From: Bacteroidaceae bacterium
GTDB taxonomy: Bacteria > Bacteroidota > Bacteroidia > Bacteroidales > Bacteroidaceae
DNA: 33,591 nucleotides
Assembly: GCA_017483765.1 (NCBI GenBank)
Contig: JAFUVE010000015.1
Location: 1 to 33,591 of the forward strand
Direction of reading: 5' to 3'
A model generated the notes under the pieces. It had not been told where the DNA came from. It saw only the letters and a list, made by a program, of their open reading frames with translations, and did not search any database. Both the position numbers and the translations under genes were made by a program. Positions 13,778-32,727 of the stretch are shown here, one piece after another. Each line of letters starts with the position of its first letter. Positions within the stretch are counted from its first letter, which is position 1.

Positions 13778-13785
13778 TAACTTTG
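13778..13785 (+). promoter_or_regulatory. -7 element TAACTTTG of the LuxR-type regulator
   Basis: TAACTTTGCA precedes the regulator start by only 21 nt, so the mRNA leader would be very short (about 15 nt). No good -33 box is visible. The upstream gap after the barrel gene (13613-13777) is AT-rich without other features. Confidence 0.55.
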
Positions 13786-13806
13786 CACACAAAAAGTTAT
13801 AGAAAA

Positions 13807-14448
13807 ATGGGTAATTTTATTTTAGCAGACAATCAGGACCTGACCCGCTTCGCCGTTGAGCGCATAATCAGAGAGGACGAGCGGAACCAGGTCCGCCGCG
13901 CCCGCGACAAAGCCGGCCTTCTCCAGCTCCTGCAGGAGAACGAGAACTCTACAGTCGTTCTCGACTATACATTGTTCAATTTCGTGGATGAAGACCAACT
14001 GCTGGTGATCAGCGAGCGCTACGCCATGACGAGCTGGCTGCTGCTCAGCTACGAGCTGACAGAGAAATTCCTCCGCCGAATCATCTATTCATCCCATGCC
14101 TTCAGCATCGTCTTCAAGGACAGTCCGATGCAGCATATCCGGGAGGCACTGCATTCTGCCAGTCAAGGCCACCGGTACATCAGCCAACGCGCGATGGAGA
14201 TGCTGCTTGAAAGCAGGAAAGAGGAAACGGAGACTGAGCTGCTGACCGCCACAGAACTGGCCATCGTGAAACTGATTGCGCAGGGAAAGACAACGAAGGA
14301 AATCGCCACTGAGCGGTTCTCAAGCATCCACACCATCACCACCCACCGGAAGAACATCTTCCGCAAACTGAACGTGAACACGGCCCATGAAGTGATAAAA
14401 TATGCACTACGCGCCGGATGGGTGGATCCGTCCGAGTTTTATATATAG
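13807..14448 (+). CDS. LuxR-type response regulator
   Basis: Start ATG 13807 (MGNFILADNQD) is preferred over an upstream TTG because the -7 box lies across that TTG. The N-terminal half resembles a receiver domain: an acidic ADNQD after the first strand, Asp55 region (TVVLDYTLFN) as the possible phosphoacceptor, and Lys in VFKDSP at the last strand. The C-terminal half (about 145-205) is a GerE-type helix-turn-helix (TATELAIVKLIAQGKTTKEI, then HTITTHRKNIFRKLNV). Length is 213 residues. No sensor kinase is adjacent. It converges on metY with 10 nt between stop codons. Confidence 0.85.
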   Translation: MGNFILADNQDLTRFAVERIIREDERNQVRRARDKAGLLQLLQENENSTVVLDYTLFNFVDEDQLLVISERYAMTSWLLLSYELTEKFLRRIIYSSHAFSIVFKDSPMQHIREALHSASQGHRYISQRAMEMLLESRKEETETELLTATELAIVKLIAQGKTTKEIATERFSSIHTITTHRKNIFRKLNVNTAHEVIKYALRAGWVDPSEFYI

Positions 14449-14475
14449 GCAGGCCTGCTTACGCAAGGGCCTGCC
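14448..14475. terminator. Shared hairpin between convergent genes
   Basis: GGCAGGCC (14448-14455) and GGCCTGCC (14468-14475) form an 8-bp perfect stem. It overlaps the last base of the LuxR-type gene and the end of metY, whose stop lies in the loop. Flanks are A/T-rich on the left but not a clean T-tract, so it probably acts as a bidirectional terminator. Confidence 0.6.
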
Positions 14476-15691
14476 TGATGTCTTTCAGGATGTCCTCCGG
14501 ATTTTCAAGCCCCAGACTGATACGCACCGTCGTGTCGTGTACACCCATGTCGTCCAGCTGTTCTTTGGTGAAGAGTCCGAAGATGGTGGACGCCGGGTGG
14601 ATGGCGAGCGTCTTGCGGTCGAAGAGGTTGGTGGCACGGCGTATGACCTGCAGACGGTCGATAAAGTCGAAGGCCTGTTCACGCGAAGCCAGATCGATGG
14701 TGAACACAGCACCGGGGAGCGGTCCGAACTGGCGAAGCGACAGCTCATGGAACGGATTATCGTCCAGACCAGTGTAGTTGACACGTTTGATATCCGTTAT
14801 TTCCTTGCATTGTTGTGCCAGCCACAGCGTGGACTCCGACTGACGGCGGAAGCGGATGTCGAGCGTGTCGAGTCCCAGCGTCTCCATATACGCCACCTGC
14901 GGTGTCATCAGCGCACCCAGGTTGGTGACCAACTCCGTCTTCACCCTGGCAGTAAACGCCATCTTCTTCCCCACCCTTTTTGTCTTAGCCGCCAGCAATG
15001 GGTTGGGCGAGCGGCTCCAGTCGAACTGGCCATAGTCGATGACCAGTCCTCCCAGCCCGGTTCCTCCCCCCGATATATATTTCGTGCTTGACACCAGCTC
15101 GATGTCGACCCCCCACTCTCTTGCATGAAAGGCAGAGAATGGCACGATGGTAGTGTCCGCCATCAGCGGCACCCCGTGCTGGTGTGCGATGTCCGCCAGC
15201 TGGCGTATGTCCGCTACGAGCAGCTGCGGGTTGGTGATAATCTCGAAGAAGAGCGCACAGGTATTCCCGTCAATCAGCTGTTCCACCTGTCCCGGATCAG
15301 TAAAGTCTGCAAACCGGGACTCGATGCCCAACGTTCCGAGCGTGTCGCGTATGAGCGAGACTGAGTTTCCAAAAAGATGTTTCGATGCCACGATATTGAG
15401 CCCCTGCGCAGCCACGGCCGTCAGTGCCGTGGCGATGGCCGCCATGCCGGTGTTGAGGGCAGTGACGCTGACCGCCTCCGTAGCCTGTCTGACCCTCTCC
15501 TCAAGGTAGGTAGTCGTAGGGTTTGCAATACGCGCATACGACGGTGCCATGGACCGGCCGCAGAACGCGTCACTCATCGCCTTCGCCGACGGGAACTCGA
15601 ATGCCGCAGTGAGATAGACCGGCATTGAGAGAGCCCCGTAGGCGTCTGGCTTCTGGTATTTCGTAGTCAGAATTTTGGTTTCGTAATTCAT
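14459..15691 (-). CDS. metY: O-acetylhomoserine sulfhydrylase (PLP-dependent)
   Basis: MetY replaces the acetyl group of O-acetylhomoserine with sulfide to form homocysteine. The PLP lysine is Lys204 in SSTKYISGGG, with family features such as SYARIANPTTTYLEERV and ALNTGMAAIATAL. Length is 410 residues, near the normal 420-430. Its ATG overlaps the desulfurase stop by 4 nt (ATGA), so it is translationally coupled as the last gene of the sulfur operon. In the HcyS pathway of Wolinella, MetY accepts sulfur from a thiocarboxylated carrier protein; genes for that carrier are at 31-32.5 kb here. A cystathionine-type lyase is less likely. Confidence 0.88.
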   Translation of the reverse strand: MNYETKILTTKYQKPDAYGALSMPVYLTAAFEFPSAKAMSDAFCGRSMAPSYARIANPTTTYLEERVRQATEAVSVTALNTGMAAIATALTAVAAQGLNIVASKHLFGNSVSLIRDTLGTLGIESRFADFTDPGQVEQLIDGNTCALFFEIITNPQLLVADIRQLADIAHQHGVPLMADTTIVPFSAFHAREWGVDIELVSSTKYISGGGTGLGGLVIDYGQFDWSRSPNPLLAAKTKRVGKKMAFTARVKTELVTNLGALMTPQVAYMETLGLDTLDIRFRRQSESTLWLAQQCKEITDIKRVNYTGLDDNPFHELSLRQFGPLPGAVFTIDLASREQAFDFIDRLQVIRRATNLFDRKTLAIHPASTIFGLFTKEQLDDMGVHDTTVRISLGLENPEDILKDIRQALA

Positions 15692-17223
15692 CTTCCAATG
15701 ATTTTCTTGATGGCGATGACCAGCTTGTCAACGTCCTCACGTGTGTTGTAGAGCGCAAAAGTAGGGCGCACGCTCATCTCATATCCCAATGCGCGCAGAG
15801 CGGGCTGAGCACAGTGATGGCCTGCACGCACCGCTATCCCCTCCTTGTCGAGGAGCGTGCCCGTCTCAGGCACGGGTATGCCGTCGAGCACGAAGGAAAC
15901 GACCGACACCCTCTGCTTGGGGTTGCCGATGAGCGTAAGTCCCTTGATTTGTGCCAGCTGTTCCCTCGCATACTCTGTGAGTTGATGCTCATGGTGCTCG
16001 ATATTCCGTATGCCGATATGGCTGACATAATCGAGGGCTACGCCCAGTCCGATGGCGTCTGCCACATTGGGCGTGCCGGCCTCGAAGCGTGCCGGCGGCA
16101 CATTGTATTCCGTCCGCTCGATGGTCACGTCCTTAATCATGTTGCCGCCACCCTGCCACGGCTGCATCTTATCCAGCAGGTCCTTCCGTCCGTAGACCAC
16201 GCCAATGCCGTTCGGTCCGTAGATCTTATGTCCGCTGAAGACGAAGAAGTCCGCACCGAGCGCCTGCACGTCCACTTTCGTGTGGGCGATGGACTGCGCG
16301 CCGTCAATCAACACCGGGATGTGGTGGCTGTGAGCAATGTCGATGATACGCTTCACGTCGTTGATGGTTCCGAAGGTGTTGTTGACGTGTCCGACGCTGA
16401 CGAACCGTGTGCGTGGAGTGATCAGCCGCTCCAGCTCAGAGAGGATGAGGTCGCTGTTCTTGTCAGTCGGTATGGCCTTCAGCTGGCAACCCTTCTCTCG
16501 GCACACCTGCTGCCATGGGACGATGTTGGCATGGTGGTCGAGTTCCGAGACGATGACCTCGTCGCCCGGGGTAAGGAACTGCCGTCCGTAGGTCTGCGCC
16601 ACGAGGTTGATACCCTCCGTAGTGCCTCTGACGAAGATGATTTCCTCGTTTGACGCCGCGTTGATGAAGCGCTGCACCTTCTCGCGGGCCTCCTCGTAGG
16701 CATCGGTGGCACGGGCTGCAAGCGTATGTGCGCCACGGTGGATATTCGAATTGTCATGTTTGTAGTAATCCGAAATCCGGTCAATCACCTGTATCGGTTT
16801 TTGCGTGGTCGCCCCGTTGTCGAGCCAGACCAGGTCGTGGCCGTTCACCTTCTGCTGGAGCACAGGGAAGTCCTTCTTGATTTGCTCTGCGTTGAGCGTG
16901 TCCGCCTCCTCATAGTTGAGGTCGCGGAGGATATGCGTCTCCGGGATGCCGATGCCGAACCCGTCCTCATGGGGGATGGCAGCGGATTTTGAATCACCGT
17001 CGTCGTCTCCGACATAAGGGAGACCGGGAAATCCGTCGCCACCCTCAAGCAGGCGCCTGAATCCCTGCTCCAGCTCATCCAGCCGCAGCTCCTCGTCAGG
17101 CAGAATCTGCCTGCGGATGCCGCGGAATTCCTCCGGGCAGTATTTCTGTGCGATTTCGCGCAACCGACCGAGTTCACCCCCGTCGGTTGCGGAAAAGGTA
17201 TTGAGTTCAGAAAGATTCAACAT
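15688..17223 (-). CDS. SufS-type cysteine desulfurase with N-terminal extension (predicted encapsulin cargo)
   Basis: The enzyme takes sulfur from cysteine as an enzyme persulfide and releases alanine. The catalytic core begins near residue 113 (AEQIKKDFPVLQQKVNG), with PLP Lys333 (FSGHKIYGPNGIG) and active-site Cys471 (RAGHHCAQPALRALG). A normal SufS has about 405 residues; this one has 511 because of a roughly 112-residue N-terminal extension. The extension has a charged helical part (1-60) and a Gly/Asp-rich, likely disordered part (61-100). Such extensions load cysteine desulfurases into Family 2 encapsulins. The start is fixed by a TAATG overlap with the encapsulin stop. Cargo status is inferred from this context. 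Confidence 0.88.
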   Translation of the reverse strand: MLNLSELNTFSATDGGELGRLREIAQKYCPEEFRGIRRQILPDEELRLDELEQGFRRLLEGGDGFPGLPYVGDDDGDSKSAAIPHEDGFGIGIPETHILRDLNYEEADTLNAEQIKKDFPVLQQKVNGHDLVWLDNGATTQKPIQVIDRISDYYKHDNSNIHRGAHTLAARATDAYEEAREKVQRFINAASNEEIIFVRGTTEGINLVAQTYGRQFLTPGDEVIVSELDHHANIVPWQQVCREKGCQLKAIPTDKNSDLILSELERLITPRTRFVSVGHVNNTFGTINDVKRIIDIAHSHHIPVLIDGAQSIAHTKVDVQALGADFFVFSGHKIYGPNGIGVVYGRKDLLDKMQPWQGGGNMIKDVTIERTEYNVPPARFEAGTPNVADAIGLGVALDYVSHIGIRNIEHHEHQLTEYAREQLAQIKGLTLIGNPKQRVSVVSFVLDGIPVPETGTLLDKEGIAVRAGHHCAQPALRALGYEMSVRPTFALYNTREDVDKLVIAIKKIIGR

Positions 17224-18662
17224 TATTTCTCTACTTTATTTCTATGCTGATAATCATGGTAATAACCCACTTCCACGTTCTCAAGAACGGCAATGGCGTC
17301 GTCGGTGAGCGCAGCAAGTGAGAAGTATTTGGTGAGCAGATATGATGCCACGCCGAACTTGTCAAGTCCCATGAGTCTTGCGCTCAGGCTGGGAGCGATT
17401 TCTCCCGGGATGCCGCTCTGGTGGAGTCCGATGACTCCCTGGCTCTGCTCTCCCACCCTGACGAGGATGATTTTCGTGGTGCCGACACCGCGTCCGGTGA
17501 GGTACTGTCCTTCCACTTCCACCTTGTCGGACGGGATGATGGGCACACCTCTCCAGAGGATGACTTTCGTGCCGAAGAGATCGGTTGTCACCGGTGGCAC
17601 CCCTCTCCATGTGCACTCCCGCTCGAATGCAGCGATGGCACGCGGATGGGCGATGAAGAAAGCCGGCTCCTTCCATACGAGCGAAAGCAGCTCGTCAAGG
17701 TCGTCAGGCGTGGGAGACCCATAGCGGGTAGTTATTCTGTAAGCCGGATTGACAGCAGACAAGAGTCCAAACTTACGGTTGTTGATGAGTTCCCATTCCT
17801 GACGTTCCTTGATGCTTTCGATGGACAGGCGCAGCTGCTCTTCCAGCTGGTTGTAGGGGTTGTTATAGAGGTCGGACACTCGTGTATGCACGCGCACCAC
17901 GGTCTGCAACGTGTTGAGACTGTATTCCGTAGGGTTCTCCTCGTAGTCGATATAGGTCTCAGGAATGATGTTGTCCTCCTCATGCCCGCTGACCAGGTCG
18001 ATATGTTTCTCTCCGTGGTCGTTCACCGTCGCCTTCAGTCTGAGCTGCTTGTCCACCGCCTTGTTGAACGTCTCCCTGAAGTCAGGCACCTCCTTGATGA
18101 ACTTCTCCAGCTCCTTGAGTTTGAGTCCGAGGAAGACGGTCGGCGTAAGCGCCCTGACCGACACGGTCGACTCCGCATCGTCGAGGAGGTCTGCCTCTCC
18201 GAAGTACTCGCCGTCGCCGAGCAGAGCGATCCTGAGTTCCTCGCCGTGTGGTCCTTTGCTGATAACCTCAGCCTGTCCGCTCGCCACGATGAAGAAGCGC
18301 TGCTTGTCGACCCCTTCCTTGACAAAGAGTTTTCCGAACTCCACCTCCTGTGTCTCGAAGGAGCGAGCCAGACGGTTGACGATCTCGTCCTTAAATTCAG
18401 AGAAAAGCGGTATCGCCTTCAGGCTCTTAGCTGAGAACGAGGGTTGTCCGTCGATGTACTGTATGGGAAGGCGCTCGCTCTTCCTAAGCTCCACTTTCGT
18501 GCGGTTGACGCGGAAAGTTCCTCCGCTCACCTGCACCCAAGGTAGCAGCTTAAGCAATAAGCGGGGGGTGATGCTCCCCATCTGCGGGGGAGTCTTAGTC
18601 GTAGTCGCCAGTCGTCTGGCTGTGGCAGTAGTGACACTGCGCTGAAGATTTGAATCTGCCAT
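17223..18662 (-). CDS. Family 2 encapsulin shell protein with cyclic-nucleotide-binding-like insertion
   Basis: Encapsulins are HK97-fold proteins that self-assemble into closed protein nanocompartments. The shell-like part spans about residues 28-80 and 245-479, with the family-typical stretch SIKERQEWELINNRKFGLL, the fold elements AFFIAHPRAIAAFEREC and a late QSGIPGEIAPSLSARLMGLDKFG. Residues about 84-205 form a cNMP-binding-like domain (FVKEGVDKQRFFIVASGQAEV, GEYFGEADLLDDAESTVSV). The phosphate-binding cassette lacks its usual Arg: the aligned position is Ser165. Length is 479 residues, against about 300 for shells without the insertion. It lies between a TusA-like gene (15 nt) and the desulfurase (TAATG overlap). 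The encapsulin call is by fold and context, without a search. Confidence 0.85.
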   Translation of the reverse strand: MADSNLQRSVTTATARRLATTTKTPPQMGSITPRLLLKLLPWVQVSGGTFRVNRTKVELRKSERLPIQYIDGQPSFSAKSLKAIPLFSEFKDEIVNRLARSFETQEVEFGKLFVKEGVDKQRFFIVASGQAEVISKGPHGEELRIALLGDGEYFGEADLLDDAESTVSVRALTPTVFLGLKLKELEKFIKEVPDFRETFNKAVDKQLRLKATVNDHGEKHIDLVSGHEEDNIIPETYIDYEENPTEYSLNTLQTVVRVHTRVSDLYNNPYNQLEEQLRLSIESIKERQEWELINNRKFGLLSAVNPAYRITTRYGSPTPDDLDELLSLVWKEPAFFIAHPRAIAAFERECTWRGVPPVTTDLFGTKVILWRGVPIIPSDKVEVEGQYLTGRGVGTTKIILVRVGEQSQGVIGLHQSGIPGEIAPSLSARLMGLDKFGVASYLLTKYFSLAALTDDAIAVLENVEVGYYHDYQHRNKVEK

Positions 18663-18677
18663 AATGAATGTTCGATT

Positions 18678-18902
18678 TTATTTTTGAATTGTTACTTTAT
18701 GTGTCGTTCCCTCCACATGCTCCACGCTGAGCACGTTGTATCCCTGCTCGCGTGCGTTTCTCGGCACGTTGTCGAGGGGTTCGCCTTCAGCGAGCAGCAC
18801 CTCGAGGATGTCGCCCTCCTGAAGTTTTGATAATTCAATTTTTGTCTTGACGAAGGTCATCGGGCAATGCTCCTTCGTGATGTCTAATACTTTTGTTGCC
18901 AT
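18678..18902 (-). CDS. tusA: TusA-like sulfur carrier protein
   Basis: The 74-residue protein has the TusA/SirA shape: a first strand (KVLDITKEHCP) with Cys13, then helix FVKTKIELSKL and strands ending in KVTIQK. The usual motif is CPxP; here it is Cys-Pro-Met-Thr, so the second Pro is replaced by Thr. TusA relays persulfide sulfur from cysteine desulfurases. Neighbours are a DsrE-like protein and the encapsulin, which supports a sulfur-relay role. It could accept sulfur from the predicted cargo desulfurase. Confidence 0.85.
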   Translation of the reverse strand: MATKVLDITKEHCPMTFVKTKIELSKLQEGDILEVLLAEGEPLDNVPRNAREQGYNVLSVEHVEGTTHKVTIQK

Positions 18903-18912
18903 GTTGTTGTTG

Positions 18913-18947
18913 AGTTGAGAGTTTAGAGTTGAGGGTTGAGAGCGAAG
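18913..18947. repeat. Heptad repeat AGTTGAG/AGTTTAG
   Basis: Five tandem 7-nt units (AGTTGAG, AGTTTAG, AGTTGAG, GGTTGAG, AGCGAAG) lie between the TusA-like and DsrE-like genes. The last unit is degenerate. Confidence 0.65.
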
Positions 18948-19026
18948 TAAGATATTCTCAGTCGAAAGGGCAAATCAACTGATCAATCTTCACAAATCAC
19001 TCTTTACTAATACATTGACATTGTTT

Positions 19027-19506
19027 TTAAATAAATAAAGTCTGTCCTCCTTCCGAGAGGTTGAGGAAGGATGCCACGCCGAGCACGTCCTTCACTTCCG
19101 GTATGAAGTCGTCCTTTGTAAGTCCGAGCACGTGCATCGCCATCTCGCAGGCATAGAAGTTGACGTCCAAGGCTTTCGCCGCATCTACCAGTTCCTCCAG
19201 TGTGGCCACATTGTTCTTTTTCATGAGTTTTCGGAAAATCTTGGGTCCGATACCCCAGAAATTGAACCTGCTGTTGGGAGCCACCTTGAGTCCGCCCATC
19301 ATGAACCCGAAGGTCTTGGTGAGCCAGTTGCTTCCGATGAAGCTCCTGCCCTGCTTCCGCTTGATGGCATCGAGTCCCCAGAAGGTAAAGAAGATGTTGA
19401 CCTCGTATCCTACTGCCGCCGCGCCTGTGGCGAGCGTGAAGACGGCCGTGAGCTTGTCGAAGTCACCGCTGAAAGCGATGATGCTGAGTTTCTTCTGGTT
19501 GCTCAT
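19027..19506 (-). CDS. DsrE-like sulfur-relay protein
   Basis: This 159-residue protein has the DsrE/DsrF-like alpha/beta fold signature: an opening strand LSIIAFSGDFDKL, a following helix and strand (AVGYEVNIFFTFWGL), and a conserved Cys120 in FYACEMAMHVLGL. Proteins of this family bind sulfur as a persulfide or act as thiol carriers beside TusA. It starts with a 4-nt overlap with the cysK stop, and the TusA gene follows after the heptad repeat. The exact partner is inferred from the operon. Confidence 0.82.
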   Translation of the reverse strand: MSNQKKLSIIAFSGDFDKLTAVFTLATGAAAVGYEVNIFFTFWGLDAIKRKQGRSFIGSNWLTKTFGFMMGGLKVAPNSRFNFWGIGPKIFRKLMKKNNVATLEELVDAAKALDVNFYACEMAMHVLGLTKDDFIPEVKDVLGVASFLNLSEGGQTLFI

Positions 19507-20444
19507 GACTGTTCAAAATTAAAGAGTTGCGTACTGAGATAGCGTTCTCCTGTGTCGGGCAGGAGCACGACGATGGTCTTGCCTTCGTTCTCCGGCCGGC
19601 GGGCGATTTTCAGTGCCGCTGCCAGCGCTGCGCCTGAGGATATTCCAGCCAGCACCCCGTCTTTCTTAGCCAGCAGCCGTCCGGCTTCGAACGCCTCCTG
19701 GTCCTTGATGCGTATGAGCTCGTCATAGACTCGGGTGTCGAGTGTCTGCGGGACAAAGCCGGCTCCGATTCCCTGGATCTTGTGCGGCCCCGGATTTCCG
19801 CCCGAAAGCACGGGCGAGGTATAGGGCTCCACTCCTATGATTTTTATCCGTTCATTATTCTGCCGCAACACCTGCCCCACTCCGGTGATGGTTCCACCGG
19901 TGCCGATTCCTGCCACGAAGAAGTCAATCTGACCGTCGGTGTCGCTGAGAATCTCCTCCGCCGTGGTTCTTCTGTGTACCTCCGGATTGGCGGGATTCTC
20001 AAATTGCTGGGGGATATAGGCGTCGTCGGTGGCATCAGCAAGTTCCTGTGCCTTTCTCACAGCTCCAGCCATCCCCTCATAAGCCGGCGTGAGCACGATT
20101 TCCGCCCCCAGCGCCTTGAGCAGTTCCCGTCGCTCCACAGACATGGCGTCGGGCATGGTGAGCACGAGGCGGTATCCCCTGATTGCTGCGATGAGCGCCA
20201 GTCCGATACCGGTGTTTCCGCTGGTCGGCTCGATGATAGTGGTGTGCGGTCCGATCAGTCCGTTACGCTCAGCCCGTTCGATGAGTGCGAGCGCCGTGCG
20301 GTCCTTCACGCTTCTCGCTGGGTTGAAAGACTCCAGTTTTGCGACAAGGCGGGTTTTGAGCTTCAGTTCCCGCTCTATACCAGACAGTTCCAGCAATGGA
20401 GTGTGTCCGATCAAGTCGATTAAGTTATGAGCTATTCTTGCCAT
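19503..20444 (-). CDS. cysK: Cysteine synthase (O-acetylserine sulfhydrylase)
   Basis: CysK makes cysteine from O-acetylserine and sulfide. PLP Lys47 is in NPARSVKDR; the substrate loop PTSGNTGIGLA and PLP-phosphate loop GTGGTITGVG are intact. Length 313 is typical. It is the first gene after promoter P1, with a leader of about 20 nt. It stops with a 4-nt overlap into the DsrE-like gene. Its place in the operon suggests production of cysteine that feeds the downstream desulfurase. Confidence 0.92.
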   Translation of the reverse strand: MARIAHNLIDLIGHTPLLELSGIERELKLKTRLVAKLESFNPARSVKDRTALALIERAERNGLIGPHTTIIEPTSGNTGIGLALIAAIRGYRLVLTMPDAMSVERRELLKALGAEIVLTPAYEGMAGAVRKAQELADATDDAYIPQQFENPANPEVHRRTTAEEILSDTDGQIDFFVAGIGTGGTITGVGQVLRQNNERIKIIGVEPYTSPVLSGGNPGPHKIQGIGAGFVPQTLDTRVYDELIRIKDQEAFEAGRLLAKKDGVLAGISSGAALAAALKIARRPENEGKTIVVLLPDTGERYLSTQLFNFEQS

Positions 20445-20469
20445 AGTTTTTGCGTTTAGAAATATGTTG

Positions 20470-20504
20470 CAAAGTTAAGGCGATTTCGCCGATTACGAAA
20501 TCGC
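20470..20504 (-). promoter_or_regulatory. Promoter P1 of the encapsulin sulfur operon
   Basis: On the minus strand GCGATT (20504-20499) stands 21 nt before TAACTTTG (20477-20470). The spacer and -33 box also contain a perfect inverted repeat, GGCGATTTCG (20479-20488) / CGAAATCGCC (20496-20505). Transcription would start about 20 nt before cysK. The same arrangement is found at P2 and P3. Confidence 0.7.
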
Positions 20505-20512
20505 CCTGTTAT

Positions 20513-20537
20513 GGCATTTGTTGTACCATATTTATGG
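20513..20537. promoter_or_regulatory. Predicted regulator site upstream of P1
   Basis: GGCA (20513) N7 TACCA (20524) N-ATGG (20534-20537) matches the shared upstream motif of P2 and P3 at the same distance from the -33 box. Here TACCATA-tt-TATGGTA (20524-20539) is a perfect palindrome. It lies just downstream of the symporter stop. Confidence 0.55.
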
Positions 20538-20551
20538 TAAGAGCCAATGGC

Positions 20552-21736
20552 TCAGCTGAGGTCATGGTCCGTCATGGCGCATACGCAGGAGTCCGACCAC
20601 ACGTTTTCCGCGGTCTCTACCATGTCGATGACGCTGTAGACCGGCAGGATGATACCCATGACAGCCACCGGAGCACCGATTCCCGACATCAGGGAGAAGG
20701 TGAGGAAGAAGCAGCCCATCGGCACGCCGGCGTTTCCCACTGCCGCGATGACGGAGATCAAGATCCATAGCAGGATAGTAGGCAGGTTCAGAACAGTACC
20801 TCCGTTCTGCATGACGAAGAGCGATGTGACGAGGATGAATGCCGCGCACCCATTCATGTTGATGGTGGTGCAGATGGGCAGGACGAACCGCGCCACTTCT
20901 TTTTTCACGCCCAGACGCTGCTCTGCCGATTCCATGGTGACGGGGAGTGTGGCAGCACTGCTTTTGGTGAAGAGCGCCATGAGCACGGCCGGGCTCATCT
21001 TTGAGAATACCTTTAGCGGGTTGAGTCCTCTCAAGAGCAGAAACAAGGGAAGGATGACGAAGAACTGGATGACATTGCCTGCCAGCACCACCAGCACATA
21101 TTTCCCGACAGAGTCTGCCATGGTGCCCGTCCCCACCTGAGCCGTGAGTAGGGCAGCAAACGCCACGATACCGACAGGAAGGGTCCAGATGAGACCTTTG
21201 ATTAGCAGGAAGAGCAGATCCTGCAATCCGTTCAGACTGCTGACCACCACCCGCTTGCCTTCCGTCTCCGGCAGTTTGGAGAGTCCGATTCCGATGGCAA
21301 ACGCCAAAAGGAGGAGTGCCAGGACATTGCCTTCGAGGAAAGGCCTGAGGATATTGTCGGGAATGACATTGATGATGTGGTCGTAATAGGATGACTCCTG
21401 TCCTTCAGGGATATTCTGCGAAGAGACGATGTCGGCCGGCAGGTTTTCTGGAGCGATTGCCCAGAAGAGAACAGCCCCGACAACGGCCGCGCAGAGAGTG
21501 GTCAGCAGGGTGTAACTGATTGTCCTTCGGAAAAGCCGTCCGGTTCCCTGCCCCGTCCCCATGCGTGTCATGGTGGTGATGACCGCCAGCACGATTGTCG
21601 GCACAGCCAGCAAACGGAAGAGCCTTGTGTAGACCGTAGCCACAAAATCAGCAATAGCATCCACTGCAGGAATCTGCAGCAATCCAAGCAGAGCCCCGAC
21701 GAGCAAGGATCCTATCCAAATGAGTATTTGACGCAT
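20552..21736 (-). CDS. Dicarboxylate/amino acid:cation symporter family (DAACS)
   Basis: A 394-residue membrane protein with about eight hydrophobic segments and two re-entrant loops. Features of the family: loop TKSSAATLPVTMESAE, unwound helix INMNGCAAFILV (NMDGT-like), and later GNAGVPMGCF. Members carry glutamate, aspartate, C4-dicarboxylates, serine/threonine or cystine (TcyP type) with Na+ or H+. The substrate is not readable, but the sulfur setting makes cystine plausible. The ATG at 21736 is chosen; an upstream extension would overlap the TonB receptor gene and is unlike the family. It is the last gene of unit 2, without a clear terminator after it. Confidence 0.85.
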   Translation of the reverse strand: MRQILIWIGSLLVGALLGLLQIPAVDAIADFVATVYTRLFRLLAVPTIVLAVITTMTRMGTGQGTGRLFRRTISYTLLTTLCAAVVGAVLFWAIAPENLPADIVSSQNIPEGQESSYYDHIINVIPDNILRPFLEGNVLALLLLAFAIGIGLSKLPETEGKRVVVSSLNGLQDLLFLLIKGLIWTLPVGIVAFAALLTAQVGTGTMADSVGKYVLVVLAGNVIQFFVILPLFLLLRGLNPLKVFSKMSPAVLMALFTKSSAATLPVTMESAEQRLGVKKEVARFVLPICTTINMNGCAAFILVTSLFVMQNGGTVLNLPTILLWILISVIAAVGNAGVPMGCFFLTFSLMSGIGAPVAVMGIILPVYSVIDMVETAENVWSDSCVCAMTDHDLS

Positions 21737-21744
21737 ATGATGAA

Positions 21745-21780
21745 ATGGGAGTAAAAGTGGGAGTAAAAATGGGAGTAAAA
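21745..21780. repeat. Three 12-bp tandem repeats before the symporter start
   Basis: Units ATGGGAGTAAAA, GTGGGAGTAAAA and ATGGGAGTAAAA run in tandem, followed by GTGGACGA. They fill the gap between the TonB receptor stop and the symporter start, near the ribosome binding region. A related degenerate stretch lies at 30725-30770. Confidence 0.8.
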
Positions 21781-21807
21781 GTGGACGAAAGTGATTTGGA
21801 TGAGAAT

Positions 21808-23790
21808 TTATAAGTCCAGTGTGAGGTTGAGGTAGATGTTGCGTCCTTTCTGCGGGATGTGGTTCCAGTCGGCATAGGTAGCATACCGCTTGTCGAAGAC
21901 ATTCTCGATGCCAGCCCTTAGCGTGAAGGGAGCAAAGACATACTGTGCGTTCAGGTTGCACACGGCCCAGGGCCGTGCCTGCGTCTCACCATATTTCCGG
22001 CCATATTTCTGTTGCCTGGCATTACCTTTCAGCTCTACCCTGCCCTGCCATTTGCCGACAGAGACGACCAAGTCTGTGGCATAAGCCCAGGGAGCGATAA
22101 GTGGCAGGGGGTCACTGTCGGCATCCCTTCCGAGAGCATAGGAGAGCGAGCCGTTCCACCGCAACCAGTCCGTCAGCTGCCACTCCCCCTTCAGGGAGAA
22201 GTTGGCAATCGTTGCGTGGTTGATATTCCCATAGACCTTCACGCCTTCTGCGTCGACCGTCATGGGGCTGAGCCGGGTCTCAAACTGGCCGATGATGTAG
22301 TTGGAGAAGAAGAACGCATTGGCATCAAGCGTGATTGTCAGTTCCTTGCCGGCCTGCCATCTCACCTGCGTGTTCAGCTCCACCGCAGACTCGTTTTTCA
22401 GGTGGGGATTCCCGATGTAATCGTATTGGTCGAACGTGTTGTTCAGATAATAGCCGTAAGCTTCCGTGACTGTAGGCGCGCGGCTTCCCCACCCGCCGCC
22501 CACGGCAAGCAGGACCGGCCCGAGCGGATGCGAATAGCTGGCGGCAATGCGTCCGGTGGTCTGATGGTAGGTGTCGCCCATTTGGGGGAAGAACACCTTC
22601 AGCGCTTTGAATCCTTCCTCATTGTTCAGTTTCTGATGCTGCCATGCCATCTTGGCAGAGACAGAGAAGGAGCGACCTCCCGTCAGCCAGATTTTGTCCC
22701 TGACCGCCAAACCGGCGTTGAGCGTCCCCACGTCGGGCCATGTGACCATATACATCGGTGCCGCACCACCCGGATACATCGTCATGTCGGCAAACAGGCG
22801 GTTATAGTAGACATCGCCATTGACCGAGAGGTCGTGCTGCCGGACAGAGGCCGTGAACAGGCTGTAGCCTCCCGCCGTCCAGCTCTTTCCGGACATATCC
22901 ATATGGATCTGCACGTCAGGCCGCTGGGTGTCGTCCATCTCGTGGGTGATATGGTTATAATAAGCCTTGGTCTCCCAAGCCGCATGCCGGAACTGGTGCC
23001 GGAACGAGAGAGAGGAAATCAAAGCCTGGGCCTTCGCCACGTCCATATTCAGAGCCGGGTAGCCCACATCCGTCGCCCGGTCGAAGATAAAGGTGCCCTC
23101 CAGGATATCATCATGGGTGAGCTTCACTCCCAGGTTGGTGAAAGCATTCACTTTCTGGAACTGCGAAAATGGCAGCCGTTCTCCCCCGCCCGTCTTGTAG
23201 TCGCCGGCATGTCGGTAGAACAGTCCGGCGTTGGCATACAGCGTCTGCCGGCTCACCGCCGCGTCTGCCCCATAGACCTGCACATGGCCGTTCCACTCAT
23301 GCCCCGCAGAGAGCGTGAGATGAAATGGGTCGCCGTCGAATCCAGCCTTCCTCAACCTCAAGTCGAGGCTTCCCCCGATGTTGCCGGTGGCCTGCGGATT
23401 ACCGTCAAGTCCGCTGTTGAGGCTGATACTCTGCAGGTTTCCGCTCTCCACATAACTGGTGACTGGGTCCATCTTGTCCGTGCAGGCGTAGAAGATCTTC
23501 ATGCCGTCGATGGTGGTGGCGACACGCTCCGTCTGCATGTTGTTGACAACCGGCTCCCATGCATACGACCCACGGCGGATGAGATTGACATGGCTGAGCT
23601 CTGACAGGTGCTCGTCGATTGTGGCCACCTGCCCTTTCGCCGACCGTTTCCGTCGGTCGGACGGGATGGAGACAACCACGACCTCGTCGAGCGAGTGCTC
23701 GTCGCCTGCAATAAGTGAGTCTGCAGGAGCAAAGGGCAGCGAGTCTGCAGGAGCAAAGGGCAGAATGGTCAAGAAGAAAGGGAAGAACAT
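21808..23790 (-). CDS. TonB-dependent receptor
   Basis: The 660-residue outer-membrane receptor has a hydrophobic N-terminus, a TonB-box-like stretch DEVVVVS (about 35-42), a plug (to about 150, with DGMKIFYACTDKMDPVTSYVE and GNIGGSLDLRLRKAG) and a barrel with a typical end (GRNIYLNLTLDL). The plug motif MDPVTSY recalls copper/metal-type receptors, but I cannot set a substrate. The N-terminus carries a tandem LPFAPADS duplication. It lies 41 nt after a YtkA/FixH-like lipoprotein and upstream of the symporter, within unit 2. A metal, a heme or a sulfur compound are all possible substrates. Confidence 0.82.
   Translation of the reverse strand: MFFPFFLTILPFAPADSLPFAPADSLIAGDEHSLDEVVVVSIPSDRRKRSAKGQVATIDEHLSELSHVNLIRRGSYAWEPVVNNMQTERVATTIDGMKIFYACTDKMDPVTSYVESGNLQSISLNSGLDGNPQATGNIGGSLDLRLRKAGFDGDPFHLTLSAGHEWNGHVQVYGADAAVSRQTLYANAGLFYRHAGDYKTGGGERLPFSQFQKVNAFTNLGVKLTHDDILEGTFIFDRATDVGYPALNMDVAKAQALISSLSFRHQFRHAAWETKAYYNHITHEMDDTQRPDVQIHMDMSGKSWTAGGYSLFTASVRQHDLSVNGDVYYNRLFADMTMYPGGAAPMYMVTWPDVGTLNAGLAVRDKIWLTGGRSFSVSAKMAWQHQKLNNEEGFKALKVFFPQMGDTYHQTTGRIAASYSHPLGPVLLAVGGGWGSRAPTVTEAYGYYLNNTFDQYDYIGNPHLKNESAVELNTQVRWQAGKELTITLDANAFFFSNYIIGQFETRLSPMTVDAEGVKVYGNINHATIANFSLKGEWQLTDWLRWNGSLSYALGRDADSDPLPLIAPWAYATDLVVSVGKWQGRVELKGNARQQKYGRKYGETQARPWAVCNLNAQYVFAPFTLRAGIENVFDKRYATYADWNHIPQKGRNIYLNLTLDL
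23717..23764. repeat. 24-bp in-frame tandem duplication
   Basis: Two 24-bp units (23717-23740 and 23741-23764) differ at one base and encode LPFAPADS twice at the start of the TonB receptor. The frame is kept. Confidence 0.85.
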
Positions 23791-23831: not shown

Positions 23832-24791
23832 TCAAATGGTAACATCCCAGTAGAGGGAACTGTAGCCATCGGAGAGGTCGTCCCCTCCCGCCAGGATGTT
23901 TCCTTTCTGGTCTCTCACAGTGAGATGGATTCTCCAAAGCCCCGTCATCGTGAGGTTGACAGTGCCCTGATAGGTTCCGTCCGCCTGAGGCGTGAGGCCC
24001 ACATTGTCTGGCGAGGTGTGGTTACCCATATCAGGCATACGAGGGTCGATATCGATAACGAACTGTTCGGAAGCCAGCTGATAAGGCTGTGTGGAGTCGT
24101 CGCTTTTGACTGAGACGAATGCCTCGACCGTATTGGTGCCGGTCTGCCAAGCCGACGGGTCTTTCAACGTCAGGTAGAAAGTGGTGTTGTCCTTCTTGAA
24201 CGATTTCAGCCAACTCTGGCCTTCGGGCAGCGGACCGACTACGATATCCGACTCTTCCACGCCTCCTGTTGCACCGAGCACATTGGCATCATAGGAGAAA
24301 GTCCATGAGCCGCTATCTCCCGAATTCATGAGGAATGCCACCCAGCCTTTCTTCACAGCGAGGTAATTGTCGTTGAATGAGGCAACACCGGAAGAGACCG
24401 GTGTGCTGTGTCTCATTCCCATCTTGGTCATCAGCATGAGCGGCGACAGGTTCGTAATGTCAAAATTCTTGATGTAGTTGCCGTTGGATTTTTTTGTGGC
24501 GACAAAATACAGCTCGTTATATCCTGTATGGAACGATGCCGACTTGGCATACGCAAAGACATTGTATTTACCGTCGACCACCGTTGAGAGTTCCGGGATG
24601 ATATAGACCGTCTGCAAGAACTTGTACACCTGCAAAGCCTCTTCCGCCGAGCAGCAGTCCACGTCACCGTCGATGGTGATTCCCGGAATTTCTATGGCTT
24701 GGTTCTCCACGTCGTCATTGGAGTTGCAGGATGTAGTGGCAGTGCCCAGGAGCACCGCCACTACGAATGGAAAAAAATTGCGTTTATACAT
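23832..24791 (-). CDS. Lipoprotein with C-terminal YtkA/FixH-like domain
   Basis: A lipoprotein signal (lipobox TTSC, Cys22) precedes an unrecognised middle part (about 40-215). The last 90 residues (IDIDPRMPDMGNHTSPDNVG, YQGTVNLTMTGLWRIHLTVRD) resemble YtkA/FixH-like domains, a small beta-sandwich found in several periplasmic metal-related proteins. The Met/His cluster MPDMGNH might bind a metal such as copper. It sits between SusD and the TonB receptor. Function is unknown; the domain match is from recall. Confidence 0.7.
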   Translation of the reverse strand: MYKRNFFPFVVAVLLGTATTSCNSNDDVENQAIEIPGITIDGDVDCCSAEEALQVYKFLQTVYIIPELSTVVDGKYNVFAYAKSASFHTGYNELYFVATKKSNGNYIKNFDITNLSPLMLMTKMGMRHSTPVSSGVASFNDNYLAVKKGWVAFLMNSGDSGSWTFSYDANVLGATGGVEESDIVVGPLPEGQSWLKSFKKDNTTFYLTLKDPSAWQTGTNTVEAFVSVKSDDSTQPYQLASEQFVIDIDPRMPDMGNHTSPDNVGLTPQADGTYQGTVNLTMTGLWRIHLTVRDQKGNILAGGDDLSDGYSSLYWDVTI

Positions 24792-26495: not shown

Positions 26496-26576
26496 TTTTT
26501 CAATCTTTTTTAAATTAATACTTTGAATTATAATATCACAATCTCTAAAAACAATTTGCAAAGAATCGTTATACAA

Positions 26577-30865: not shown

Positions 30866-30900
30866 CAAAGTTACGGCGAAAAATTAGATGGGGCAATCGC
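30866..30900 (-). promoter_or_regulatory. Promoter P2 of the PBP-SusC-SusD operon
   Basis: GCGATT (30900-30895, minus strand) is followed after 21 nt by TAACTTTG (30873-30866), the same spacing as P1 and P3. The bases GCC-x before TAACTTTGCA are shared with P3 and P1. Confidence 0.7.
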
Positions 30901-30908
30901 CTTGGTTT

Positions 30909-30933
30909 GGCATTCCGCATACCAAACAAATGG
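30909..30933. promoter_or_regulatory. Predicted regulator site upstream of P2
   Basis: GGCA (30909) N7 TACCA (30920) N6 ATGG (30930-30933) matches the sites of P1 and P3. A further inverted repeat GTTTGG / CCAAAC (30905-30910 / 30922-30927) overlaps it. Confidence 0.55.
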
Positions 30934-30960
30934 GAGGAACCACCCAGCAGGGTCCCTCCC
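30932..30960 (-). terminator. Possible terminator after the JAMM protease gene
   Basis: GGGAGG (30932-30937) can pair with CCTCCC (30955-30960), with inner AACC/GGGT pairing. On the minus strand it is followed only by ATTTGTTTGG, not a good T-tract. The stretch 30961-31049 holds nothing else recognisable. Confidence 0.3.
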
Positions 30961-31049: not shown

Positions 31050-31439
31050 TCAGAGATGTTCCTCCTTGTTGACGACCGCTCCCTGTCTGATGGCGAAGGA
31101 GTTGAGCCGTGGCTGGCCGTCGAGTAGCGAGAGGATGGCATATCTGATTGATGGGTCGTTGGCGAGCCGTAGGTCTTCCTGCGAGGGTCTTGATGGCGAT
31201 GCGGGATGGGAATGCCAGTTGGCCAGTATTCTCAGCCCGTTCTGCCTTGCATAGCGCATGGCCTGGAACTGCTGTCTGGGGTCGAATGAGAAATGTTCGG
31301 GTGAATGGTCCACATTCTCCATGGGGAAGTTCTCCGTGACGGTATCGTCCCTGCCGAGCAGGTAGCCGCACGACTCGTTGGGCAGCTCTGCACGGGCCTG
31401 TGCGATGAGTTGATCTATCACGTTCTTTTTGATGGTCAT
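31050..31439 (-). CDS. hcyD: JAMM-domain metalloprotease, HcyD/Mec-like
   Basis: The zinc metalloprotease signature is complete: Glu22 (NESCGYLLG) and His76-x-His78-x7-Ser86-x2-Asp89 (WHSHPASPSRPSQED). Related enzymes are Mec of Mycobacterium, which frees cysteine from CysO, and HcyD of Wolinella, which trims a residue from the C-terminus of HcyS to expose Gly-Gly. Length is 129 residues. It lies 12 nt after the ThiF-like gene in the same operon as a carrier that ends beyond its Gly-Gly, which favours the trimming role. Symbol by analogy. Confidence 0.82.
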   Translation of the reverse strand: MTIKKNVIDQLIAQARAELPNESCGYLLGRDDTVTENFPMENVDHSPEHFSFDPRQQFQAMRYARQNGLRILANWHSHPASPSRPSQEDLRLANDPSIRYAILSLLDGQPRLNSFAIRQGAVVNKEEHL

Positions 31440-31451
31440 AGTCTCCTTGTT

Positions 31452-32258
31452 TTAGTGTTTGAGGTCACAAGCAGCCTGCTCGTAGTCAATGAGGTGGTCG
31501 ATGGTAGGGTTCGTCCCGCAGATGGCGCAGGAGTCGCGATGTCTGACCGGCACGGTACGGAACTGCATGGTCTTGGCGTCGAAGGTGAGAAGACGGTTGG
31601 TCAGCAGCTCTCCTACTCCGGTGAAATACTTGAGTGTCTCCGCCGCCTGGATGGTGCCGAGCATGCCGGCGATGGCGCCGAGCACCCCAGCCTGCGAGCA
31701 GGTGGGCACAGCGCCTGGAGGAGGCGGTTCCTTGAACATACAGCGGTAGCAGGCGGTGCCGGGCAGATGGGTGAACGTCTGACCGTTGAACCGTAGGATC
31801 CCACCATGCGAGAAGGGCTTTCCGGCCATCACGCAGGCGTCGTTGATCAGGAATTTCACGGGGAAATTGTCCGTACCGTCCACCACGAAGTCATATTCTT
31901 TGATGATGTCGAGGGCGTTTGAGGAGTCGAGAAACTCATGATAGGTGTCGACCGTCACGTCGGGATTGATGGCGAGCATCTTCTCCTTGGCGCTCTCCAC
32001 CTTCGGCACGCCCACGTCCTTGGTGAAGTGGATGACCTGTCGCTGCAGGTTGCTGAGGTCCACCACGTCGGCATCGACGATGCCGATGCGTCCGACTCCG
32101 GCAGCAGCCAGGTAGAGTCCTACGGGTGCGCCAAGGCCTCCCGCGCCGACGATGAGAACTTTGGCATTCAGGATCTTCTCCTGGCCTTCCACGCCCACGT
32201 CCTGCAGGAGGATATGGCGTGAATAGCGTTGTATCTGTTCTTCGGTGAAGTCAATCAT
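31452..32258 (-). CDS. hcyF: ThiF/MoeB-family activating enzyme, HcyF-like
   Basis: This E1-like enzyme would adenylate the C-terminal glycine of the ThiS-like carrier with ATP and help form its thiocarboxylate. The nucleotide-binding loop GAGGLGAPV is near residues 38-46, followed by IGIVDADVVDLSNLQRQ (family signature). Two CxxC pairs (ACYRCMF and CAICGT) form the usual zinc site, and VPTCSQAGVLG carries a conserved Cys. Length is 268 residues. It starts with a 4-nt overlap with the carrier stop. There is no C-terminal rhodanese domain, so sulfur would come from another donor. Confidence 0.85.
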   Translation of the reverse strand: MIDFTEEQIQRYSRHILLQDVGVEGQEKILNAKVLIVGAGGLGAPVGLYLAAAGVGRIGIVDADVVDLSNLQRQVIHFTKDVGVPKVESAKEKMLAINPDVTVDTYHEFLDSSNALDIIKEYDFVVDGTDNFPVKFLINDACVMAGKPFSHGGILRFNGQTFTHLPGTACYRCMFKEPPPPGAVPTCSQAGVLGAIAGMLGTIQAAETLKYFTGVGELLTNRLLTFDAKTMQFRTVPVRHRDSCAICGTNPTIDHLIDYEQAACDLKH

Positions 32259-32467
32259 CGCGCACCTCCTCCCATAAAATAAAGGAAATCCACGCTGTCG
32301 TTCTCATTGAGCCTGATACTTTTCCAGTCGTCACGCTCCGCAAATTCCTCGTTCACCTGCACGGACACCATCTCCGGGTTTTCAACATGCAGAAACTCAA
32401 TCAATTCAGTCACTGTCAGCGGCAATACGACGTCCCGCTGCTCTCCGTTTACATAGATTTTTGCCAT
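32255..32467 (-). CDS. hcyS: ThiS/MoaD-like sulfur carrier, HcyS-like
   Basis: A 70-residue ubiquitin-fold carrier (IYVNGEQ, LPLTVTELIEFLHV, VQVNEEF, LNENDSVDFLYF). The C-terminus is Gly66-Gly67-Gly68-Ala69-Arg70, not a free Gly-Gly as in mature ThiS or MoaD. The extra residues would block thiocarboxylate formation until a protease removes them, and the JAMM gene is in this operon. The ATG at 32467 is chosen; the frame runs upstream to 32554 across promoter P3, which cannot be coding. In Wolinella, HcyS delivers sulfur to MetY for homocysteine synthesis. A thiamine role is possible but no thiamine genes are near. Confidence 0.82.
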   Translation of the reverse strand: MAKIYVNGEQRDVVLPLTVTELIEFLHVENPEMVSVQVNEEFAERDDWKSIRLNENDSVDFLYFMGGGAR

Positions 32468-32494: not shown

Positions 32495-32529
32495 CAAAGT
32501 TACGGCAAAAACCGCTGCTGCACAATCGC
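32495..32529 (-). promoter_or_regulatory. Promoter P3 of the hcyS-hcyF-hcyD operon
   Basis: GCGATT (32529-32524, minus strand) lies 21 nt before TAACTTTG (32502-32495); transcription would start near 32488, about 20 nt before hcyS. This is the third copy of the design seen at P1 and P2. Confidence 0.7.
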
Positions 32530-32537
32530 ACAACAGC

Positions 32538-32562
32538 GGTAAAACGGATACCAAGAAGATGG
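32538..32562. promoter_or_regulatory. Predicted regulator site upstream of P3
   Basis: GGTA (32538) N7 TACCA (32549) N6 ATGG (32559-32562) has the same spacing as at P1 and P2; GGTA-N7-TACC is a perfect inverted repeat here. Confidence 0.55.
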
Positions 32563-32669
32563 TAGAGAATAAAGCCTATGCGTGGGTTTCAACGGTGGAT
32601 GGGCAGAAACGAAAACAGAAATGGCAAACCGGTTCTTGTCGCTGCAAAAAACAAAAATCATCTGATTTA

Positions 32670-32701
32670 TTTGCGATTCTCCCTTTTTCTTTGTAATTTC
32701 G
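32670..32701 (+). promoter_or_regulatory. Promoter of the AAA ATPase gene
   Basis: TTTG (32670-32673), 20-nt spacer, TAATTTCG (32694-32701). It matches the Bacteroidetes consensus apart from C in place of T in the -7 box. The leader is about 20 nt. Confidence 0.65.
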
Positions 32702-32727
32702 CAAAAGAAACGAAAAAAAACAACGTT

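Follow-up and report, generated by a model that had tools for sequence, protein, structure and literature searches.

The stretch of DNA analyzed here (the window) comprises 33,591 nucleotides of contig JAFUVE010000015.1 from a Bacteroidaceae bacterium, and our subject is an operon in it that is built around an encapsulin shell. The open reading frames of the window place six genes on the minus strand (14459-20444), in the order cysK, dsrE2, tusA, shell, desulfurase, and metY-like. Adjacent genes overlap by 4 bases at cysK/dsrE2 and at desulfurase/metY (ATGA in both cases) and by 1 base at shell/desulfurase (TAATG), and gaps of 124 and 15 bases lie at dsrE2/tusA and tusA/shell. The operon is real, and its gene positions, strand, and couplings are those given by the original prediction, an earlier annotation of this DNA made without database searches. 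That annotation missed a second minus-strand unit (31050-32467) that lies some 11 kb upstream of cysK and encodes a ThiS-like carrier, a ThiF-like activating enzyme whose gene overlaps that of the carrier by 4 bases, and a JAMM metallopeptidase. We traced this trio from the structure matched by the operon's MetY, 3ri6, and then through the ThiS-like, ThiF-like, and JAMM genes that stand beside the operons of relatives. We take its members to be parts of the HcyS/HcyF/HcyD pathway. Where might the sulfur released in such a shell go? We lean, if only slightly, toward the view that the operon encodes a Family 2B encapsulin with a dedicated SufS-type desulfurase cargo and that this compartment is built into a protein-thiocarboxylate pathway to homocysteine (methionine).

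Features of the encapsulin operon and the HcyS/HcyF/HcyD-like unit in the window
Feature	Coordinates	Strand	Basis
MetY-like enzyme	14459..15691	-	best solved relative 3ri6; clade with Wolinella MetY, support 1.0
SufS-type cysteine desulfurase, 511 aa, N-terminal extension	15688..17223	-	PF00266 E 1e-147; NF041166 719.8 bits, cut-off 800
Family 2B encapsulin shell (predicted), 479 aa	17223..18662	-	NF041163 567 bits, cut-off 400; 9bje_A match
TusA-type sulfur carrier, CPMT motif	18678..18902	-	PF01206 E 2e-20
DsrE2-type sulfur carrier, stand-alone, YACEMAM cysteine motif	19027..19506	-	PF13686 (DrsE_2) E 8e-41
CysK, cysteine synthase A	19503..20444	-	TIGR01139 443.9 bits, cut-off 351
TAACTTTG, candidate Bacteroidales-type -7 box before cysK	20470..20477	-	match to consensus
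Composite motif TACC-N8-GGTA-N9-CC-N6-GNGCGATT upstream of cysK	20499..20539	-	pattern match
HcyD-like JAMM metallopeptidase	31050..31439	-	PF14464 E 4e-25
HcyF-like (ThiF/MoeB family) activating enzyme, without rhodanese domain	31452..32258	-	PF00899 275.9 bits, sole Pfam match
HcyS-like (ThiS family) carrier, 70 aa, ends MGGGAR	32255..32467	-	PF02597 48.5 bits
TAACTTTG, candidate -7 box before hcyS	32495..32502	-	match to consensus
Composite motif TACC-N8-GGTA-N9-CC-N6-GNGCGATT upstream of hcyS	32524..32564	-	pattern match

Relatives were compared in two samples. The first consists of the best 80 of 438 stretches that encode a shell relative; these are 92-100% identical, belong to one lineage, and are mostly metagenome-assembled genomes (MAGs). 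Their hosts are Prevotellaceae, Bacteroidaceae, or Bacteroidales, many of them, to judge by their titles, from the rumen or other ruminant stomachs. Prevotella aff. ruminicola Tc2-24 (L068) is not marked as a MAG, nor is Bacteroidales bacterium KHT7 (L033). In 42 of the 80 loci, sequence extends for 6 kb to either side of the shell; these are called loci with room below, and many others are cut by contig ends. Identity floors in the locus counts were 50% for MetY, 60% for HcyF, 65% for CysK, and 50% for LuxR, and the remaining genes were counted as matched. Some genomes recur among the later loci (e.g., L068/L141, L030/L149, and L033/L150), and both L001 and L160 nearly duplicate the window, so that the sequence counts are not all independent. 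The second sample is a survey of 201 genomes of the family, the same set for shell, HcyD, MetY, DsrE2, and reductase, counted among the matches listed. We tallied by hand the within-genus table, the 24/29 distances, and the numbers of MetY genomes (29 with the shell and 20 without it).

The shell protein scored above the cut-off of the NCBIfam model encap_f2b and matched the SrpI-like family PF19307 (E 4e-113), and its residues 7-466 align with the solved shell 9bje_A (E 2e-113). A cNMP-type domain is inserted at about residues 79-208, between HK97/SrpI-like parts at about 1-78 and 209-479. Within it, cNMP_binding (PF00027, E 6e-15) matched residues 107-191, between the two segments (2-56 and 225-474) aligned to the 2A shell 6x8m_A. 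We assign the protein to the Family 2B encapsulins, with the cNMP-type domain inserted in the E-loop part. The encapsulin-like shell of the original prediction was confirmed by this check against HK97/encapsulin models, and the 2B equivalog model, together with the solved shells that matched, decided against a phage capsid. Of the further claim that this is a desulfurase encapsulin of the Family 2 type found in cyanobacteria, the family and the SufS-type cargo held, and the cyanobacterial subfamily, 2A, gave way to 2B.

Is the shell controlled by cyclic nucleotides? Domains that bind these molecules are expected to carry an arginine in the phosphate cassette. At that site, which we placed by eye, Ser165 is found in 101/101 family shells and a serine in 42/42 shells of green sulfur bacteria. 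We rejected cyclic nucleotide control on this count and on that of PMC12407261, which reports a demonstrated lack of cyclic nucleotide binding by 2B cNMP-type domains. In a Streptomyces shell, the same source places the domain on the outside, above two-fold pores that measure 14 by 60 Angstrom. Among 395 genomes drawn from the phylum, the closest further 2B shells (median identity, 64.8%) belong to one family of green sulfur bacteria, whose shell genomes encoded the FMO protein in 7/7 cases tested. The operon there consists of CysK, often a serine acetyltransferase (one tested by model), shell, and desulfurase (L123-L134). Some green sulfur genomes carry two shell genes (G141, G161, G197, G217, and G307).

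The desulfurase gene directly follows that of the shell, and the long N-terminal extension described in the original prediction proved correct: about 105-113 residues precede the SufS-type match to Aminotran_5. The desulfurase model NF041166, under its cut-off, matched from position 220 of 623. The PLP-lysine motif SGHK and the catalytic-cysteine motif RxGHHC were each present in 87/88 desulfurases. Up to a landmark in the core, the extension measured 90-149 residues in 77/79 sequences (74 unique), and two stretches of it were kept, one resembling AQKYCPEE (62/74 unique extensions) and one resembling (G)FGIGIPE (64/74). In the 2A system SrpI/CyD of Synechococcus elongatus (PMC8049743), a SufS-type desulfurase likewise stands beside an HK97-fold shell, and its extension was shown to load the cargo. 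That extension, however, has 225 residues with LARLANEFFS and AASPYYFLDG, and the 2A shell lacks a cNMP-type domain. Each of the six extensions of 2A or green sulfur type that could be cut, out of 17 loci, contained a YYFL-like loading motif, against 0/74 unique extensions of relatives, and we dropped the motif as a candidate here. The extension of about 105 residues is presumed to be the loading region, and from it and from the gene neighborhood we infer that the desulfurase is encapsulated. Because a second SufS in a shorter frame is encoded in 28/29 shell genomes, the extended desulfurase would be free for a special task.

We next consider the trio, whose unit we identify, by family and motif, as the HcyS/HcyF/HcyD set of protein-thiocarboxylate homocysteine synthesis. 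The features of that pathway are present: a tailed ThiS-like carrier and, in one unit with it, a JAMM peptidase and a ThiF-like enzyme free of rhodanese. All carriers with FLYFMGG (83/83) run 2-24 residues past the second glycine, counting a third glycine, and in no case is GG or GGG the end of the protein. The metal motif HSHP-x6-S-x2-D was found in 67/67 HcyD sequences, and the nucleotide loop and the Cys motif in 69/69 HcyF sequences. The trio could instead have nothing to do with the encapsulin and form a thiamine or ubiquitin-like conjugation system, a possibility that the ThiS, ThiF, and JAB families would permit by themselves and that agrees with the score of the HcyS carrier against the thiS model TIGR01683 (61.8, cut-off 37.45). 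We consider this extremely unlikely, since the carriers are tailed in 83/83 cases, whereas four ThiS proteins of green sulfur loci end in GGG, and since the trio co-occurs tightly with the shell. Nor did Rfam support thiamine genes: at the gathering threshold, its models found only two tRNAs on seven sources, and riboswitch control was likewise rejected.

How closely are the two units tied? In the 42 loci with room, DsrE2, TusA, and the desulfurase were each present 42 times, MetY 41 times, HcyS, HcyF, and HcyD 37 times each, and CysK 16 times. Across all 80 loci, HcyS and HcyF were found in 64, HcyD in 58, and serine acetyltransferase in 9, and HcyF, where found, always lay <4 kb from the shell. 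The five loci with room that lack the trio are L001 (the near copy of the window, with the trio farther away), L030 (G439, with the trio on another contig), L038, L063, and L067. The position of the trio varies from divergent upstream to in-line upstream, in-line downstream, or interleaved; L142, L155, and L156 read hcyS-hcyF-dsrE2-tusA-hcyD-shell-desulfurase. TusA and DsrE, named in the original prediction as partners of the shell, are thus constant (YACEMAM in 84/90 DsrE2, CPMT in 89/90 TusA), but CysK, which it had treated as a fixed part, is not.

The genome survey gave a similar picture. The shell exceeded its cut-off in 29/201 genomes, and HcyD (E 1e-20 or better) was found in 31/201, that is, in 29/29 shell genomes and in 2/172 others (G419, 56% complete, and G429). 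Within the nine genera that hold the shell, HcyD was present in 29/29 genomes with it versus 0/60 without it (Fisher 4e-24, a value overstated since the genomes are related). HcyD lay <3 kb from the shell in 24/29 genomes, 12.4 kb away in G000, and on another contig in G561, G456, G414, and G439. DsrE2 of the operon type (at least 80% identity) occurred in 29/29 shell genomes and 0/172 others; its best matches elsewhere, in 57 genomes, were 32-44% identical and lay inside open frames of 693 to 1,483 residues.

The optional place of CysK bears on another explanation, in which the carrier serves cysteine synthesis and the CysK of the operon is the acceptor enzyme. Mycobacterial CysO/CysM/Mec+ is such a carrier-based route to cysteine. 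ThiS-like, JAB, and cysteine synthase genes do stand together elsewhere (PMC1779556, Table 1, rows 4c and 4d), and CysK lies beside the trio in L144 and L146. We nevertheless regard this as very unlikely: remaking cysteine from sulfur derived from cysteine would be futile, and it is MetY, not CysK, that is present in nearly all loci with room.

Both units are preceded by the same composite motif (see the table), and its only two exact matches in the window stand one ahead of each unit. The pattern was drawn from these two sites after the consensus of the relatives had been seen, so that the window matches are no independent test, whereas the relatives are. The hcyS gene diverges from the shell operon in 28 loci, with a median gap of 184 bases, and a TAnnTTTG -7 box was found on both sides in 27/28 of them (0.049 in random 120-mers). 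A dyad resembling GGTAAATCGCATACC-N8-GGTATGCGAAATGCC is common to the 24 unique divergent regions among those of <230 bases. Over the 80 loci, we obtained 110 readings of the motif at two mismatches or fewer, of which 86 lay no more than 200 bases ahead of hcyS (38), dsrE2 (33), cysK (14), or shell (1). A dyad read on both strands counts twice here, and 12 gene types were scored as neighbors, so the remaining 24 readings may precede other genes. The motif stood ahead of 37/63 hcyS genes and 43/73 first genes of the shell operon and was absent ahead of the rest. Together, gene order and motif demonstrate, at the level of sequence, that the units are linked and co-regulated. A third copy in the window, with two mismatches (30895-30935, minus strand), precedes a 284-residue protein without a Pfam match (29727-30581, minus strand) and then a SusC-like receptor and a SusD-like protein (24834-29639); this unit may possibly serve sulfur-regulated uptake.

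Co-regulation is also what the main rival explanation predicts. Here, two separate pathways would share one sulfur regulon: the encapsulin would store or detoxify sulfur, and the trio and MetY would draw sulfide from elsewhere. A common upstream motif fits such co-regulation without contact, the two units lie on different contigs in G414 and G439, and sulfur storage has been cited for desulfurase encapsulins (PMC12407261) since the 2021 description, which leaves the fate of the sulfur open (PMC8049743). The gene orders speak otherwise. The two carriers that form part of the HcyS module in L143 and L144 (see below), TusA and DsrE2, stand beside the shell in 42/42 loci with room, and in L142, L155, and L156 the run hcyF-dsrE2-tusA-hcyD-shell-desulfurase interleaves the two units. 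We therefore judge separate pathways to be unlikely, though far from negligible.

We then asked what kind of enzyme the operon's MetY is. It fell below the cut-off of all 25 NCBIfam models shown (44 matched), the top one being O-acetylhomoserine sulfhydrylase (TIGR01326, 312 bits versus a cut-off of 495). Its closest solved structure is 3ri6 (322 bits; the next, 259), which we take to be MetY of Wolinella succinogenes. The Wolinella enzyme takes its sulfur from a carrier protein and not from sulfide (PMC6271081). The loop P-[DE]-x-x-YHG, of the sulfide type, was absent from 79/79 complete MetY sequences of at least 50% identity, from the hcyS-linked MetY of L143 and L144, and from 3ri6 as aligned; it was present in 7kb0 and in 12/12 second MetY copies near the operon. 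The MetY Lys motif was kept in 77/77 sequences. In a tree that took 12/43 downstream-type and 12/26 upstream-type MetY, the operon MetY, 3ri6, and the L143/L144 MetY formed one clade (support 1.0) separate from the loop-bearing MetY. MetY of at least 50% identity was found in 29/29 shell genomes. Because shell-linked MetY are spread over several branches of the clade, the operon recruited MetY more than once, which speaks for a role of MetY with the shell and not for which sulfur donor it uses. Acyl-homoserine, acetyl or succinyl, is likely to be supplied, as the homoserine acyltransferase family PF04204 was found in 27/29 shell genomes and the two misses are about 70% complete.

These results bear on the scheme of the original prediction, in which the shell holds sulfur, CysK supplies the cysteine, and TusA/DsrE pass the sulfur to an ordinary MetY. 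Operon order and protein families agree with it, and the direction toward MetY was retained, the gene being present in 41/42 loci with room. The direct passage from TusA/DsrE to MetY was not, because it leaves the trio unexplained and because this MetY lies outside the loop-bearing clade and below the model cut-offs. With CysK in only 16/42 loci in addition, we give the scheme as a whole little credence.

The trio also exists without the shell. Two genomes from outside the class (G074 and G188; L143 and L144) have no shell over the cut-off and carry the cluster sulfite reductase-tusA-hcyS-metY-hcyF-dsrE2-tusA-hcyD, into which Rrf2 and CysK genes are inserted in L144. This shell-free gene order assigns both carriers, TusA and DsrE2, to the HcyS module. 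In G419, the trio adjoins CysH, CysN, CysD, and a nitrite/sulfite reductase-family protein with a C-terminal TusA domain. The shell-bearing G414 and G439 have the trio on a contig with CysD/N/H and a TusA-fused reductase, apart from the shell (tested by models in L161; fusion also in L162). All four reductases of the family (G414, G419, G439, and G573; L145, L161, L162, and L163) end in a TusA domain, which perhaps allows direct hand-over to the carrier; none of them reaches the cut-off of a named sulfite reductase model, so that their name rests on their neighbors. An NIR_SIR reductase was found in 3/29 shell genomes and not in G000 (70% complete). These arrangements point to TusA and DsrE2 as the relay of the HcyS module and to the reductase and the encapsulated desulfurase as alternative feeders. 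In L146 (G429, no shell), a 60-residue frame (3108-3290, minus strand) with DsrE2-like and TusA-like pieces lies between hcyF and hcyD, as if the relay had decayed, although an assembly fault could produce it too.

In the scheme that we favor, the desulfurase inside the shell would take sulfur off cysteine, either made by CysK or imported, and yield alanine. The sulfane sulfur would leave the shell and be carried by TusA and DsrE2. HcyD would trim the tail of HcyS back to the glycines, HcyF would activate the trimmed end, and the sulfur would make HcyS-COSH. MetY would then join the sulfur of HcyS-COSH to acylated homoserine, and HcyD would free the homocysteine. Sulfite reductase, the feeder in Wolinella and in relatives examined here, would give way to the encapsulated desulfurase in most of these Prevotella-group genomes. 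What the sequences show is the gene content, the intact motifs, the recurring linkage, the co-occurrence, and the common upstream motif; encapsulation, the direction of sulfur flow, the passage through the shell, and HcyS as the donor of MetY are the steps that we infer. A stronger form of the idea makes the nanocompartment the sulfur source of the thiocarboxylate methionine pathway, with the sulfur held on proteins all the way from cysteine to homocysteine (shell-held persulfide, TusA, DsrE2, and HcyS-COSH) and with neither cystathionine nor free sulfide. Such an all-protein chain would amount to a transsulfuration route; we put it forward tentatively and would stop short of calling it probable.

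Several observations weigh against this scheme, and most of them concern MetY. Given the loop-bearing MetY near the operon in 12 loci, the HcyS route would not be the sole one. MetY of at least 50% identity also occurred in 20/172 shell-free genomes, in which HcyD was not found; the YHG loop was present in 0/20 of these MetY, and in the tree they fall among the shell-linked MetY. A PatB-type C-S lyase was encoded in 15/20 of these shell-free stretches (over the model cut-off in L165), often adjoining MetY (L165-L183), which suggests that bacteria with this pair use a cystathionine route. A cystathionine-synthase-like protein of green sulfur bacteria likewise lacks the YHG loop. We accordingly rejected the missing loop as proof of HcyS use and lowered our confidence in the scheme; because MetY of trio-free genomes share both clade and loop state, neither proves HcyS use, and the MetY step is the weakest link of the proposed pathway. 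One potential explanation for these MetY data is that the desulfurase does feed HcyS, but that HcyS-COSH serves another acceptor and the MetY-like enzyme is of a cystathionine type or uses sulfide. The shell-free genomes with PatB are its best support. Against it, the hcyS-linked MetY of L143/L144 and the Wolinella MetY share the operon's clade, MetY is present in 41/42 loci with room, and a PatB-type gene was found in 2/80 shell loci (also in L142, L154, and L156), and we hold this explanation to be quite unlikely.

The remaining difficulties concern linkage and feeding. In the window itself, other genes stand between the trio and the operon over the 11 kb that separate them, and in G439 and G414 (L030, L033, L149, and L150) the shell has neither MetY nor trio alongside. 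Green sulfur bacteria, which hold the nearest shells outside the family, had no DsrE2 or TusA beside the shell, and no HcyD turned up in the drawn genomes; Chlorobium phaeobacteroides is listed for a trio of the same class in PMC1779556. Linked genes can travel together without a common reaction. The argument for a swap of feeders rests on G414, G439, G419 (56% complete), and two outgroup genomes, and in G573 the reductase is on a separate contig while the trio is still near the shell. The reductase is rare in the whole family (4/201, all four with HcyD), so that its absence from 26/29 shell genomes is background; we dropped this absence as a special trait of shell genomes. Finally, TusA would have to reach a cargo enclosed in the shell.

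A shell with a desulfurase cargo is of a known kind and is not new by itself. Family 2B desulfurase encapsulins have been described in 199 operons from nine phyla (PMC8346489), and like the operon in the window they combine a shell with an inserted cNMP-type domain and a SufS-type cargo with an N-terminal extension. The most enriched accessory genes there are serine acetyltransferases and rhodaneses, whereas the constant partners here are TusA, DsrE2, MetY, and the HcyS trio. The original prediction had called the operon fuller than the usual shell-desulfurase pair; the pair itself was already known, and TusA, DsrE2, and MetY proved to be constant partners. The trio has its own precedents.

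In Wolinella succinogenes, the pathway described by Krishnamoorthy and Begley in 2011 reportedly draws its sulfur from sulfite reductase, which the encapsulated cysteine desulfurase would replace here. The HcyS/HcyF/HcyD/MetY set of that organism (PMC6271081, PMC6225789, and PMC5764234) resembles ours in its tailed carrier, its rhodanese-free ThiF-like enzyme, its JAMM peptidase, and a MetY in the 3ri6 clade. Row 4e of Table 1 in PMC1779556 holds neighborhoods with the same trio (carrier, JAB, and an E1 without rhodanese), always with a SirA/TusA protein and with sulfate assimilation genes and OAH sulfhydrylase, and that paper cites a prediction that SirA acts like a rhodanese. Unlike the operon studied here, those neighborhoods are tied to sulfate assimilation, and the excerpt of the paper names neither an encapsulin nor a desulfurase in them. 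In the open-licence literature, we did not find encapsulins joined with TusA or thiocarboxylate, or any two of the names HcyS, HcyD, and HcyF together, and records for encapsulin with Prevotella were unrelated by title. As far as that literature tells, the join of an encapsulin to the thiocarboxylate trio is new. The tie between operon and trio suggests where sulfur from desulfurase shells may go. A specific chain of acceptors can be read from the genome, so that the sulfur's fate becomes directly testable with a few purified proteins. If the scheme is true, the HcyS pathway would be fed from a sulfur source of a second kind, and this in bacteria that are common in rumen metagenomes.

Other genes surround the two units. 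Just ahead of the operon lies a gene for an SDF-type symporter (20552-21961, minus strand), present also in 11/80 relatives' loci; the NCBIfam models that matched it were all below cut-off, and it could import cystine or an organic acid. Farther upstream on the same strand are a YtkA-domain protein (23832-24791) and a TonB receptor (21808-23790), and in L041 and L063 a site of the composite motif stands just before the YtkA gene. A LuxR/NarL-type regulator (13783-14448, plus strand), whose receiver domain scored weakly (21 bits, below cut-off), faces the operon and is nearby in 38/80 loci. At the other end, a predicted AAA-ATPase-like gene (32578-33591, plus strand; PF09820, E 8e-61) runs off the end of the window.

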